From Chloroflexota bacterium (GTDB lineage: Bacteria; Chloroflexota; Anaerolineae; UBA4142): a stretch of 5,086 nucleotides of DNA. Where the stretch lies: the NCBI GenBank assembly GCA_023380675.1, contig JAMCRS010000240.1, positions 1 through 5,086 of the forward strand, written 5' to 3'. The translations under genes and the position numbers were made by a program. Below the pieces are notes generated by a model, which was given only the letters and a program-made list of their open reading frames with translations, was not told the origin of the DNA and did not search any database. Of this stretch, positions 1 to 5,001 are shown piece by piece (within the stretch, counting starts at the first letter, position 1; each line of letters starts with the position of its first letter).

Positions 1-376
1 TGTGCATGCTCTGCTCGATCGTAACCAGCCCGCCGATGCCGGACCCGATCAAGGCGCCGACATTGTCGGCGTTGGACTCGTCGATCTTCAAGCCCGCTTG
101 CTTGAGCGCCTGCACCGTGGCGCCGATCGACAGTTGGATGAACCAATCGGCCCGGCGCGCCTCCTTGTGGTCGATATAGTCGCCGTACGCGCCGATGTCA
201 AAGTCGTTGACCTGCGCGGCAACCTGTACTGCAAAGCGTGACGGATCGAAGCGGGTGATTCGATCGATAGCCGGCGTCCCGGCGAGCAGGCCGGCCCAAA
301 ATTTGTCGACCGAGCTCCCCACTGGAGTAACGACCCCCAGTCCCGTGACGACCACGCGTCGGTTGTTGTTCGACAT
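1..376 (-). CDS. fabF: beta-ketoacyl-ACP synthase II (FabF/KAS II), N-terminal part, cut by window edge
   Basis: Condensing enzyme of type II fatty acid synthesis: it joins malonyl-ACP to a growing acyl-ACP in the cytoplasm. The 125 codons visible begin MSNNNRRVVVTGLGVVTPVG, the standard FabF start (RRVVVTG.G.VTP.G). They continue with the family's W..L..G..AI..I..FD segment (residues about 27-44), the K-[ED]-ARR-x-D-x-FIQ motif (about 71-81) and the GSGIGG loop (about 111-116). The catalytic Cys and the two His lie beyond the edge, so activity cannot be judged. The ATG at 376-374 is chosen because GGAGG (385-389) sits 8 nt upstream. The gene starts 29 nt after the selD stop on the same strand and could be co-transcribed with moaC-selD, though its strong ribosome site would also suit separate expression. 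FabB or another KAS is less likely given the N-terminus. Confidence 0.93.
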   Translation of the reverse strand, partial: MSNNNRRVVVTGLGVVTPVGSSVDKFWAGLLAGTPAIDRITRFDPSRFAVQVAAQVNDFDIGAYGDYIDHKEARRADWFIQLSIGATVQALKQAGLKIDESNADNVGALIGSGIGGLVTIEQSMH

Positions 377-405: not shown

Positions 406-1476
406 TCAATCGACTGAGATGCGGGTCGGGTGCGCTGTGGCGGCCCCCATTTCCGTCACATCCCCCACCCGCCAGTGCGATGCACCGCGTGATTCAAGGG
501 CGGTCTCCAGCGCGCCCTGTTCCGCGGCGGGCACCGCCATCAAAAGCCCGCCGGAAGTCTGCGGATCGAACAAGATCTCATAGTGCTCGTCGTCCAATTC
601 TTTTTTGAGGTCTACTTTGCCGTCCAGGTAGAGCTTGTTGCGCCCGGCGCCTCCGGGCACTTGCTTCTGTCGCGCATAATCGAGCGCGCCCTCGGCGACC
701 GGGAGCGCGTCGACGTGAAAGGTGAGCGCCACGTCGGAGGCTTCTGCGATCTCGTACGCGTGACCCAATAGCCCATAGCCGGTGATATCCGTCGCGCATC
801 GGATTCCGACTTGCTGCATCGCCTGGGCGGCGCCGCGATTCAGTCGCGTCATCCACCCGGTCGCGCTGGCGAGGTCAGCTTCGGTCGCGACTCCGTTCTT
901 GCCGGCCGTCGTAATGAGCCCGAATCCGAGCGGCTTGGTGAGGATCAGAACGTCCCCCGGCCGTGCTCCACCCTTGCGGATGATCCGGTCGGGGTGTACG
1001 GTGCCGGTGACCGAGAGGCCGAACTTGGGTTCGTTGTCGATGATCGTGTGGCCGCCGGCGATCGCCCCGCCCGCCTCGGCTACCTTGTCCGCGGCTCCGC
1101 GCATGACGTCGCTCAGCGCCTCGAGCGGCATGTCGTCGCGCCAGGCGGCGATGTTCATCGCTACGATCACCTCGCCGCCCATGGCGTAGACGTCGCTCAG
1201 GGCATTCGCGGCTGCGATCGCGCCAAAGTCGTATGGATCATCGACGACGGGCGGAAAGAAATCCATCGTCTGAATGATCGCCGTGTTCTCGTCGATGCGA
1301 TAGACCGCGGCGTCGTCGGGCGCGCCGAGGCCGACGAGAAGATTCGGATAGTCTTTCGTCCTGAAGGTGTCGCGGAGAGGGCGCAGGACCTGCGCCAATT
1401 CGGCTGCGCCGATCTTGGACGCTCAGCCAGCGCAGGCCGCGTAGGAAGTCAAACGGATTCGCTTGCCAGTGGTCAT
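406..1476 (-). CDS. selD: selenide, water dikinase (selenophosphate synthase), Sec-containing, UGA at codon 18
   Basis: SelD makes selenophosphate from selenide and ATP, the selenium donor for Sec-tRNA. Read from the ATG at 1476 with the UGA at 1425-1423 decoded as Sec, the protein has 356 residues, a normal length. The N-terminus, MTTGKRIRLTSYAACAG-U-ASK, aligns with E. coli IRLTQYSHGAGCGCK: Sec18 falls on catalytic Cys17 and Lys21 on Lys20. Further family marks are TMDFFPPVVDDPYDFG (about 70-85), NALSD (91-95), AGGHTI (about 140-145), DITGYGLLGH (230-239) and FDPQTSGGLL (303-312). The ATG overlaps the moaC stop (ATGA), and GGAG lies 11 nt upstream inside moaC. A TTG at 1398 opens an uninterrupted frame of 330 codons, but that product would lack Sec18 and Lys21, so I reject it as the start. 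The gene stops at TGA (408-406). Synthesis should depend on selenium, because without Sec-tRNA translation would end at codon 18. A sequencing error in a Cys codon is the main alternative. Confidence 0.92.
1380..1422 (-). promoter_or_regulatory. candidate bacterial SECIS element inside selD
   Basis: The mRNA after the UGA can fold in two ways. First, 1396 to 1380 reads GGCGCAGGUCCUGCGCC, a perfect 7-bp stem with a GUC triloop, or 6 bp with loop GGUCC. It resembles the apical E. coli fdhF SECIS as I recall it, GGUUGCAGGUCUGCACC, including the GGUC that SelB contacts. The loop lies about 33 nt after the UGA, inside but near the far end of the usual bacterial spacing. Second, 1422-1392 can form an extended stem starting right after the UGA: GCG/CGC, one bulged U, CCAA/UUGG, then UCGGC/GCCGA with loop GCA. 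The two overlap at 1396-1392, so the full forms are alternatives. Only the first has the GU-type loop. Folding was done by eye. Confidence 0.65.
1423..1425 (-). other. UGA recoded as selenocysteine (SelD residue 18)
   Basis: An in-frame TGA interrupts an otherwise continuous selD frame at the position of the family's catalytic Cys. Conserved SelD residues lie on both sides: RLTSY..CAG before it and ASK after it. Sec at this position is known from many SelD proteins. UGA also ends moaC and selD here, which argues against a general codon reassignment. Confidence 0.85.
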
Positions 1477-1961
1477 TCTAAACGGATCTCCCCGCTCTTG
1501 CCCCCCCGTTTCAACACCAAGCGGACGTTTTGGATACGCATGCCCCGATCGACCGCTTTCGCCATGTCGTAGATCGTGAGCGCGGCCGTCGTCACCGCGA
1601 CCAACGCCTCCATCTCGACGCCGGTCTTGCCGACGTTCTTTGCCGTGCCCGTGATGCCCACCCGCGCCGGTTCCACGGCGTCTCCCTCGGAGAGCGTCTC
1701 GAATTCCACGACCACGTCGGTGATCAACAGCGGATGGCACATCGGGATCATTTCGTGCGTCCGCTTGGCGCCCAGGATGCCGGCGACCCGTGCGACGGAG
1801 AACACGTCTCCCTTCTCGAGCTTGCCCGCGCGAATCAGCTCGAGCGTGCCGGGCTGCATCGTCACTTCGCCCTTGGCGATGGCGACGCGTTCGGTGTCCG
1901 GTTTGGCGCTGACGTCGACCATCTGCGCGCGCCCTTGATTATCGATGTGAGACAGTGTCAT
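1473..1961 (-). CDS. moaC: cyclic pyranopterin monophosphate synthase MoaC
   Basis: MoaC converts 3',8-cyclo-7,8-dihydro-GTP, made by MoaA, into cyclic pyranopterin monophosphate, the first stable intermediate of molybdenum cofactor synthesis. From the ATG at 1961 it has 162 residues, against 161 in E. coli. Family motifs run along its length: SHID..G.A.MVDVS.K (4-20), KGDVF..AR.AGI..AKRT (50-68), IPMCHPL (72-78), GKTGVEMEAL (111-120), ALTIYDMAKAV (127-137) and KRGGKSGE (151-158). His76, Asp132 and Lys135 match the E. coli catalytic His77, Asp128 and Lys131. The start is chosen by homology; no clear Shine-Dalgarno precedes it. An in-frame ATG at 2012 would add 17 residues outside the family core. 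The TGA stop overlaps the selD ATG, so the two are probably translationally coupled and form one operon from the promoter at 2129-2157. Its presence implies molybdenum or tungsten enzymes. Confidence 0.96.
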   Translation of the reverse strand: MTLSHIDNQGRAQMVDVSAKPDTERVAIAKGEVTMQPGTLELIRAGKLEKGDVFSVARVAGILGAKRTHEMIPMCHPLLITDVVVEFETLSEGDAVEPARVGITGTAKNVGKTGVEMEALVAVTTAALTIYDMAKAVDRGMRIQNVRLVLKRGGKSGEIRLE

Positions 1962-2128: not shown

Positions 2129-2157
2129 ATTATACTCTCCTTCCTATGTTAGTTCAA
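2129..2157 (-). promoter_or_regulatory. sigma70-type promoter of the moaC-selD operon
   Basis: On the minus strand TTGAAC (2157-2152), a 17-nt spacer and a perfect TATAAT (2134-2129) form a near-ideal housekeeping promoter. Transcription should start near 2122 and run into moaC. No other gene on this strand lies between it and moaC. Confidence 0.75.
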
Positions 2158-2626: not shown

Positions 2627-4528
2627 TTGAAGCACGCTTCGTTAGGGGAACGACTGCGCTACGAGTTCGACAACCTGATGGCGAGAGGCACGATCGCTCT
2701 GATTGCCTCGCTCGGGGTTGTCTCCGTCGCATTCATTCTGATCGTTTCTTCGGCCGTGTTCGTCACAGGCATTTCTCGAGCGGAGGACCGGCCCGATGGA
2801 TTGTCCTTTTTCCAGATTGCGTGGATGAGTCTGCTCCGCACGTTCGACCCCGGAACGATGGGCGGCGACACCGGGGGTCCGTTGTTTCTCTTTTCGATGC
2901 TCGTCGTGACGCTCGGCGGCATTTTTCTTGTTAGCACCCTGATCGGTATCTTGACCAGTGGCATCGAGGCGCGCATCCAGGAGCTGCGCAAGGGACGTTC
3001 GTTTGTCGTCGAGCAGGGCCACATGCTCATCCTGGGTTGGTCGCCGCAGATCTTCACCGTTATCTCAGAGTTGGTCGAGGCGAACGCGAACCAGCCGCGT
3101 TCCTGCATCGTGGTTCTCGCCGATAAGGACAAGGTGGAGATGGAGGACGCCATCCACGCCCAAGTCCCGTCGATGCGGCGCACTCGCCTCGTCTGCCGGA
3201 GCGGCAGCCCGCTGGATCTTCACGACCTCGATACGGTGAACCCGCACGGCGCCAGATCGATCATTGTCCTCGCACCCGAGACAGATAACCCGGATACCGC
3301 GGTCATCAAATCCCTGCTTGCGCTGACGAACAATCCCAACCGCAAGCTGGAGCCCTACCATATCGTTGCCGAGATCCGAGACGCGAAGAATATGGATGTC
3401 GCCCGAATGGTCGGGCGTGACGAGGCGCAGATCGTCCTTATCGGCGACTTGATTTCGCGGATCACGGTGCAGACCTGCCGGCAATCCGGCCTCTCGATTG
3501 TCTACACGGAATTGCTCAATTTCGGCGGGGATGAGATCTATTTCCATTCGGAGCCGGCTTTGGTCGGCAAGACCTTCGGCGAATCACTTTCCCGATACGA
3601 AGACTCGGCTGTCATCGGCTTGCAGCGCAAAGACGATCGCACGGTACTCAATCCACCCATGGACACGCGCATCGAGCAGGGCGACCGGATAATTGCGATC
3701 TCGGAGGACGACGACACCGTCGAGATTTCCGGGTTGACCGACTTCGGGATCGAGCAGGGAGCGATCCAGCAGCCCCGCCCGAGCCAGCCGCTGCCGGAAC
3801 GCACGCTCATTCTTGGCTGGAACAGCCGGGCGCCGAGCATTATTCGTGAACTGGACGCGTATGTTGCACCGGGGTCGGAGACGACGGTTGTCGCCAATGT
3901 GCCTGACCTCGAGGCCCAGGTCACGTCCATCCCGGTAGGTCGCCAAAAGGTATCGTGCCAGACCGGCGACACGACGGACCGTCGCACGCTCGACGCTCTC
4001 GACATCCCGGGCTTTGACCACGTGATCGTCTTGAGCTACTCTGACACCTTGGAAGCCGAGCAAGCCGACTCGCAGACCCTGGTCACGCTCCTCCATCTAC
4101 GCGACATGAGCGAGAAGACAGGCAAGGACTTTGCCATCGTCAGCGAGATGCTAGACGTCCGCAACCGAACCCTCGCCGACGTCACCCGCGCCGACGACTT
4201 TATCGTCAGCGACCAGTTGGTCAGTTTGATGCTTTCCCAGGTCTCGGAGAACAAGAGCCTTACCGGCGTCTTTGCCGATCTGTTCGATCCGGAAGGCTCG
4301 GAGATTTACCTGAAACCCGCTGAGAACTATGTCAAGCCCGGCGTGCCGTTGAACTTTTACACCGTACTCGAGTCCGCTCGCTGCCGGGGTGAAGTAGCCA
4401 TCGGATATCGCCAGCACCGCCACGCGCACGATGCGGCGCAATCATACGGCGTCGTAGTGAATCCAAACAAATCGGAGCAAATGACTTTCGAGACAGGCGA
4501 CAACGTGATCGTACTCGCCGAATCCTAG
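2627..4528 (+). CDS. CASTOR/POLLUX-like ion channel with two RCK (TrkA-N) modules
   Basis: A 633-residue inner-membrane protein, about the usual length for the bacterial relatives of the plant nuclear channels CASTOR and POLLUX. The cytoplasmic N-terminus (SLGERLRYEFDNLMARGT, 5-22) is typical of the family. TM1 spans about 22-49. A pore helix and loop follow, FFQIAWMSLLRTFDPGTMGGD (61-81), then TM2 at about 85-110. The loop carries DPGTMGGD where classical potassium channels have TVGYG, so ion selectivity cannot be inferred. The first RCK-like Rossmann module starts at GHMLILGW (131-138) and ends in an RCK_C-like segment (about 304-361). The second starts at RTLILGW (392-398) and runs to the C-terminus. 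The LILGW.S strand-turn replaces the classical GxGxxG. Such modules form a cytoplasmic gating ring. The start is TTG, chosen from GAGGAGG upstream. The gene has its own promoter and terminator and is probably monocistronic. A link to the selenium/molybdenum genes is not supported. Confidence 0.88.
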   Translation: MKHASLGERLRYEFDNLMARGTIALIASLGVVSVAFILIVSSAVFVTGISRAEDRPDGLSFFQIAWMSLLRTFDPGTMGGDTGGPLFLFSMLVVTLGGIFLVSTLIGILTSGIEARIQELRKGRSFVVEQGHMLILGWSPQIFTVISELVEANANQPRSCIVVLADKDKVEMEDAIHAQVPSMRRTRLVCRSGSPLDLHDLDTVNPHGARSIIVLAPETDNPDTAVIKSLLALTNNPNRKLEPYHIVAEIRDAKNMDVARMVGRDEAQIVLIGDLISRITVQTCRQSGLSIVYTELLNFGGDEIYFHSEPALVGKTFGESLSRYEDSAVIGLQRKDDRTVLNPPMDTRIEQGDRIIAISEDDDTVEISGLTDFGIEQGAIQQPRPSQPLPERTLILGWNSRAPSIIRELDAYVAPGSETTVVANVPDLEAQVTSIPVGRQKVSCQTGDTTDRRTLDALDIPGFDHVIVLSYSDTLEAEQADSQTLVTLLHLRDMSEKTGKDFAIVSEMLDVRNRTLADVTRADDFIVSDQLVSLMLSQVSENKSLTGVFADLFDPEGSEIYLKPAENYVKPGVPLNFYTVLESARCRGEVAIGYRQHRHAHDAAQSYGVVVNPNKSEQMTFETGDNVIVLAES

Positions 4529-4539
4529 GGCAAATGACG

Positions 4540-4578
4540 GGGGCTATCCAGAGAGAGAATCTGGATAGCCCCTTATTT
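4540..4578 (+). terminator. intrinsic terminator of the ion channel gene
   Basis: A perfect 12-bp stem, GGGGCTATCCAG (4540-4551) and CTGGATAGCCCC (4561-4572), with a 9-nt loop is followed by TTATTT. It begins 11 nt after the channel stop codon. On the minus strand the hairpin is followed by CGTCATTTG, with no real U-tract, so it should mainly stop plus-strand transcription. Confidence 0.8.
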
Positions 4579-4798
4579 CCGGTGAGACAAAGTCAGGCAC
4601 GAGCTGTCCTAGCGCGGTCTCGTTCTCGTCTCGTTTGTGCGCTTCCGCGGCCGCCGCTGCATCCTTCAGCGGCAGAGCCTCGATCTCCTCTACATGTTCG
4701 GTGAGCCATCGTAGCCGCTTGACGACCTGCTGGGAAACGGATCGATCCAGTTGCTTGAGATCGCGTTCTGCCGGTTTGAGGATGACGAGGCGATACAC
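4544..4798 (-). pseudogene. RelE/ParE-family toxin, C-terminal half lost
   Basis: The first 44 or so residues, MYRLVILKPAERDLKQLD..V...V..RL.WL......I..LPL, match the start of RelE/ParE toxins, ribosome-dependent mRNA nucleases or gyrase poisons of type II toxin-antitoxin systems. After LPL the family has a KLRxGDYRVIY core and an H/R-rich catalytic end. Here they are replaced by low-complexity, unrelated sequence (KDAAAAAEAHKRDENE). None of the three minus-strand frames to 4544 restores the core, so this is not a simple frameshift. The frame runs on to a TAG inside the terminator stem, so the normal-looking total of 84 codons is accidental. The start is GTG at 4798, 5 nt after the antitoxin stop, with GGAG about 10 nt upstream at the antitoxin's end. 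It is probably an inactive remnant; a divergent toxin with a new C-terminus is less likely. Confidence 0.6.
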
Positions 4799-4803
4799 GC
4801 GGT

Positions 4804-5001
4804 TTACTCCAACCCCATTTCCTTGACGACCTCGTCAAGTGATCGGCCACGCTGGCCAGCCGCGTACTCTTGCTCCTGCCGCTTCAGACGCTCGACGATC
4901 TCGGGGCGCAGTTCCAGCCCCTCATCCGGATCACCAAGCCACTGCGCCAAGGTGTTTTCCACCGTCGCTGTGATGGTCATCTGTAATTCATCGACGGTCA
5001 T
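4804..5001 (-). CDS. type II toxin-antitoxin antitoxin (partner of RelE/ParE-type toxin)
   Basis: A small acidic protein of 65 residues, MTVDELQMTITATVENTLAQ at the start, then LGDPDEGLELRPEIVERLKR (about 42% into the chain) and ending SLDEVVKEMGLE. This pattern (MT.DEL..T...TVE.TL...LGDPDEGLELRPE) is typical of short antitoxins encoded just before RelE-like toxins. Such antitoxins bind and neutralise the toxin and often repress their own promoter. I cannot name a specific family, and no DNA-binding fold is evident by eye. ATG at 5001 is chosen with a weak AAGG about 8 nt upstream. The gene is intact while its toxin is broken. The 85 bases from here to the window edge show no clear promoter or gene. 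Confidence 0.75.
   Translation of the reverse strand: MTVDELQMTITATVENTLAQWLGDPDEGLELRPEIVERLKRQEQEYAAGQRGRSLDEVVKEMGLE

Follow-up and report, generated by a model that had tools for sequence, protein, structure and literature searches.

A selenophosphate synthetase gene with an in-frame UGA, proposed to encode selenocysteine, at its catalytic position in a Chloroflexota-like locus

Genes and features of the selD locus

The window, i.e., the whole stretch of 5,086 nucleotides analysed here, carries on its minus strand a frame for the selenophosphate synthetase SelD that begins with an ATG at 1476, ends with a TGA stop codon (408-406) and is open but for one TGA at 1425-1423, in the context RLTSYAACAG-U-ASKIG (Table 1). 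The frame, its coordinates, the single in-frame TGA and the CAG and ASK flanks had been described in an earlier reading made from the letters alone (hereafter the sequence-only reading), and all were found again when the sequence was re-read; that account mentioned neither the proposed SECIS hairpin, nor the overlap of selD and moaC (ATGA), nor the CxxU motif, all described below. The frame scores 376 bits against the SelD equivalog model TIGR00476 (cut-off 125) and 319.5 bits against NF002098 (cut-off 299), and comprises the domains AIRS (PF00586) and AIRS_C (PF02769). Its best match of solved structure is the selenide, water dikinase 3u0o_A of the PDB, aligned over query residues 6-333, which we take to be the SelD of E. 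coli. Codon 18 aligns with Cys17 of this protein in the motif GAGCGCK, which places the TGA at the active-site position of the family, as the sequence-only reading had supposed. Cys17 of the E. coli enzyme is presumably catalytic, and we assume catalytic roles in SelD for both Cys17 and Lys20, although a literature search on these two residues found nothing.

Translation of selD may be coupled to that of the overlapping moaC, upstream of which lies a promoter-like sequence, one of four such sites found in the region 300-2700 against 0.3 expected in shuffles. A stem that resembles a terminator and carries a T-rich tail (2061-2038, minus strand) separates the promoter-like site from moaC; it may be an attenuator or a chance occurrence, as four such stems were found against 1.8 expected. 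A fixed moaC-selD operon was considered and rejected: the two genes are adjacent in the window and in L001 alone (L030 being the same place), moaC is some 1.3 to 4.3 kb upstream of selD in L002, L003, L004, L005, L008, L009, L011 and L014, and no moaC was detected close to selD in L006, L010, L012, L013 and L015-L021, while L007 and most later loci offer only 1 to 1.5 kb of upstream sequence for this comparison. The ketoacyl synthase frame downstream of selD scores 128.7 bits against TIGR03150, below the full-length cut-off of that model, and seven relatives (L001, L003, L004, L008, L009, L011 and L014) have a similar frame, identified by eye, after selD. Elsewhere in the window, the plus strand at 2627-4525 encodes an ion channel of the Castor/Pollux type (633 aa; PF06241 at 113 bits) that has RCK/TrkA domains and is transcribed away from moaC-selD. 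Two adjacent short frames on the minus strand (4547-4798 and 4807-5001) have by eye a toxin-antitoxin-like layout and matched nothing in Pfam or NCBIfam at 1e-3.

Table 1. Positions of genes and sequence elements at the selD locus
Feature	Position	Strand	Remarks
selD (selenophosphate synthetase)	406..1476	-	356 codons + stop; UGA = codon 18; TIGR00476, PF00586, PF02769
In-frame TGA, proposed selenocysteine 18	1423..1425	-	228 aligned loci: 190 TGA, 38 Cys codon
Lys21 codon, aligned with Lys of GCGCK	1414..1416	-	Lys three residues after Sec/Cys in 228/228 loci
Cys15 codon, CxxU motif C-A-G-U	1432..1434	-	Cys at -3 in 112/129 Chloroflexota UGA rows
Proposed bacterial SECIS hairpin	1380..1396	-	Stem 7 bp, 33 nt from UGA; GUC loop, 1389-1387
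TTG start of automatic call, 330-aa truncated frame	1396..1398	-	Last base = first base of hairpin
moaC	1473..1961	-	PF01967, 181.4 bits; TIGR00581; stop overlaps selD start as ATGA, 1476-1473
GGGGAG, possible ribosome-binding site	1488..1493	-	11 nt before selD ATG; read from sequence
Promoter-like TTGAAC-17-TATAAT	2129..2157	-	Upstream of moaC; consensus match only
Beta-ketoacyl-ACP synthase start (fabF-like)	2..373	-	Cut by window end; downstream of selD; PF00109, 70.7 bits

Codon 18 among SelD genes and their annotations

When the active-site region was aligned with Cys- and Sec-type SelD proteins, the check proposed by the sequence-only reading, the column of codon 18 held TGA or a Cys codon and nothing else in 228 SelD loci including the window, and the residue at +3 was invariably Lys (Table 1). 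The nearest relatives of the window SelD come from Anaerolineae/Chloroflexi MAGs (59–76% identity), which makes a host of this lineage probable. The contig search of genomes gave 21 relatives in which the aligned codon is TGA in 20 and TGT in one (L020). A wider set of 111 loci spanning codon 18, reduced to 108 including the window after three duplicates were dropped, contained 88 TGA, 12 TGT and 8 TGC; L103 and L106, which match SelD without covering codon 18, stand outside the counts. A further 120 rows of a Chloroflexota search added 102 TGA, 9 TGC and 9 TGT. Among the best 150 Chloroflexota rows, a hand count gave 129 with and 21 without an internal stop, in agreement with the codons read (27 + 102 TGA, 3 + 18 Cys). 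Sec-SelD thus outnumbers the Cys form in the sampled Chloroflexota matches (129/150 rows), these being the best matches to the window query from 301 genomes (275 with some match, many of them weak), in which distant SelD forms are under-sampled and one genome, G110, appears twice. This genome carries two different UGA-containing selD genes (L197 and L246), one with a CxxU (SCAG-U) and one with a UxC motif (HGAG-UAC). Each of the 12 closest genomes has one SelD, with UGA; the other eight matches in them show 24–32% identity and less than 40 bits.

The sequence-only reading had also predicted that an automated call would start at the TTG at 1398, and the corresponding 330-residue open reading frame does exist. 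Among the 120 database homologues in the matches listed (7,999 scored), 59 begin with [M/L]AQV, the counterpart of this TTG, all 120 start downstream of the UGA, and the active-site motif is missing from the first 60 residues of every one. That gene callers favour this site would suit an explanation in which translation really ends at the UGA and the working enzyme is the 330-aa product of the TTG start. Such a protein would lack the Sec/Cys and Lys residues kept in every one of the 228 loci, the codons 5' of the UGA still encode the SelD N-terminus, and the TTG abuts the stem of the hairpin described below, so that we consider this explanation very improbable. With the UGA read as selenocysteine, the annotations instead point to a systematic database error, as none of the 120 listed relatives (7,999 scored) keeps the active site.

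The TGA might also be a Cys codon rendered wrongly in sequencing or assembly, and such a codon does occupy the site in 38 of the 228 loci. A lone error is unlikely because the same TGA is present in 12/12 orthologues at 59–76% identity (L001-L011 and L014), and the window keeps its hairpin, whereas four Cys loci are without one at that register; we regard an error as still less probable than a true stop.

The hairpin after the UGA and the selenocysteine machinery of relatives

The 17-nt hairpin at 1396-1380, GGCGCAG-GUC-CUGCGCC, has a folding energy of -11.3 kcal/mol (z -3.45), a value equalled by none of 200 shuffles; the fold of the full 51-nt stretch does not stand out (z -1.18, 26/200 shuffles as good), and Rfam gave no matches in the window at gathering thresholds. 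The bSECIS model, as set out in a legend of PMC13188914, comprises a loop of 3–9 nt with a G within its first two positions, a stem of 4–16 bp, a distance of 16–37 nt from the UGA and a minimum free energy of at most -7.5. With a 3-nt loop starting G-U, a stem of seven pairs, a distance of 33 nt and -11.3 kcal/mol, the window hairpin falls within the model as given there.

Covariation was evaluated in 41 UGA loci (40 distinct) from among the window, L001-L014 and L031-L059, with L015-L019 and L021 left out. In these loci, 95.7% of cells were paired, 17 cells had changed on both sides against 0–5 with the partner slid, and the covariation score was 0.228 against 0.042–0.148 when slid; three pairs showed both-sided change, a number reached by 87/500 shuffles. 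The closing pair is G-C in 24, A-U in 9 and C-G in 1 of 40. At the fixed register, 6–7 of the 7 pairs form in 40/47 UGA loci versus 0/4 Cys loci (Fisher 0.0013), while a free search for hairpins that fit the bSECIS model at -7.5 kcal/mol or lower found them in 62/88 UGA versus 0/20 Cys loci of the wider set and in 73/102 UGA versus 8/18 Cys loci of the further Chloroflexota sample (p 0.03), with the qualification that the loci are related, so that the p values for hairpins here are not those of independent samples. UGA loci without a hairpin at the register of the window are L016, L017, L019 and L021. Under synonymous recoding, the window reached p 0.023 in a run of 47 and p 0.015 in a run of 88 UGA loci, and only 21/47 and 45/88 of the loci, respectively, reached p 0.05. 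In one Cys-type selD (L052), the 5' arm GGCGCAA is kept and the 3' arm has decayed, as would be expected for a former SECIS after a change from Sec to Cys. We propose, on comparative sequence grounds, that the selD hairpin is a bacterial SECIS element, as it fits the model and covaries among relatives.

The genes selA, selB and selC were searched in the 21 relative genomes with a SelD match, many of which are MAGs, and in 14 control genomes. Scores over cut-off were obtained for tRNA-Sec (selC) in 19/21 relatives (best matches 61–76 bits; not in G005 or the Cys-type G020), for SelB in 18/21 (not in G001, G009 and G020) and for SelA in 17/21 (not in G004, G005, G006 and G020, where a 213-aa frame of G020 scores 264.8 versus a cut-off of 267.9). 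All three were over cut-off in 15 of the 20 relative genomes with a UGA-containing selD and at least one in 20/20, one or two being missing in the other five. In the 14 controls, tRNA-Sec, SelB and SelA were over cut-off in 5, 2 and 1, respectively.

Selenocysteine is probably used beyond SelD itself, because matches to the formate dehydrogenase alpha subunit with one in-frame TGA (candidate Sec) and more than 550 bits were present in 7 of 14 relatives (G001, G002, G003, G004, G010, G013 and G014, with G010 below cut-off). Further molybdopterin-oxidoreductase matches with one in-frame TGA in frames of about 1010–1100 aa, below the formate dehydrogenase cut-off, were seen in G003, G014, G002, G004, G006, G001 and G013 and are possibly additional Sec enzymes. 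A role in selenouridine formation (selU) was considered and set aside, as TIGR03167 was found in none of the 14 relatives and over cut-off in 1/14 controls.

That the UGA is read as some other amino acid, through a changed code or plain read-through without Sec, would account for the open frame and nothing more, and has about as little probability as a sequencing error: selD and moaC both end in TGA in the window, which makes a changed code unlikely, the column alternates with Cys only, and selC, selB and selA are present in relatives. The replacement of the catalytic Cys by Sec that the sequence-only reading had put forward is thus backed by a column of UGA or Cys alone, by a conserved SECIS-like hairpin and by Sec machinery in relatives. 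On this evidence, selD very probably encodes a selenophosphate synthetase with selenocysteine at its catalytic position, where Sec insertion and catalysis are what we infer from the genes.

Self-dependence and the CxxU motif

In the proposed mechanism, a ribosome that reaches the UGA at 1425-1423 would meet the hairpin at 1396-1380, to which bound SelB would deliver Sec-tRNA-Sec, with translation then continuing until the stop codon at 408-406. In the resulting protein, Sec18 and Lys21 lie in the loop that would make selenophosphate from selenide and ATP. As SelA requires selenophosphate for the synthesis of Sec-tRNA-Sec, SelD would depend on its own product. The sequence-only reading had called this a feed-forward loop on selenium supply. 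The self-dependence stands; the circuit is one of positive feedback rather than feed-forward, since the product of SelD is needed to make SelD, and a regulation by, or response to, selenium supply may follow from it. SelD genes of this kind, with an in-frame UGA for selenocysteine, have been known since the 1990s, and a title by Guimaraes et al. from 1996 reportedly asks about autoregulation.

The underlying pathway, from SelD-made selenophosphate through Sec-tRNA formation by SelA to insertion by SelB and a SECIS hairpin, is established (PMC1794560 and PMC13188914). PMC1794560 also names FdhA and SelD as the most widespread selenoproteins, and Sec is found in about 19% of SelD genes of a reference set according to PMC4561486. 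The bacterial Sec-SelD described in PMC1794560 and PMC4561486 is already known to be self-dependent and is like that of the window in having Sec at the catalytic position and a UGA just upstream of a bSECIS. Nothing essential differs; the window SelD is a Chloroflexota-like member that has the CxxU motif and whose gene overlaps moaC by ATGA.

The less usual feature of the window SelD is Cys15, which gives the CxxU motif. The catalytic loop and Lys of 3u0o_A align with the window SelD, but 3u0o_A has Cys instead of Sec, and its second Cys stands at +2 (CGCK) rather than at -3 (CAGU). Over the 228 loci, the partner Cys is at -3 in 147, at +2 in 14 and at both in none, where 9.0 would be expected (one-sided Fisher 2.3e-7, uncorrected for relatedness). 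In the best 150 Chloroflexota rows, Cys at -3 occurs in 26/27 + 86/102 of the UGA genes and in 3/3 + 16/18 = 19/21 of the Cys genes, with the proviso that the window query itself carries CxxU and the sample may lean towards it. CxxU in SelD is known from PMC2398784, where it makes up about 5.6% of single-domain Sec-SelDs of a marine set, compared with 112/129 of the Chloroflexota UGA rows sampled here. The same paper describes CxxC in all Ndh-SelD fusions found; like the window SelD, these fusions and the CxxU SelDs have a Cys three residues before the Sec/Cys, and unlike the fusions the window SelD is single-domain.

The motif may have a redox role. A far-reaching version, in which Chloroflexota SelD is as a rule CxxU, Cys15 and Sec18 form a reversible selenenylsulfide, and selenium activation is redox-gated or fed by a thiol relay, so that self-dependence would become an on/off switch for the whole selenoproteome, is speculative and in our judgement rather unlikely, and the CxxU motif is a testable detail.

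No bypass through a Cys-type SelD is apparent in the 12 closest assemblies, which may be incomplete, because each has a single SelD, with UGA. These genomes, with their one UGA-containing SelD, would present a clean case of the bootstrapping question, that is, how a cell could restart once its selenocysteine is exhausted.
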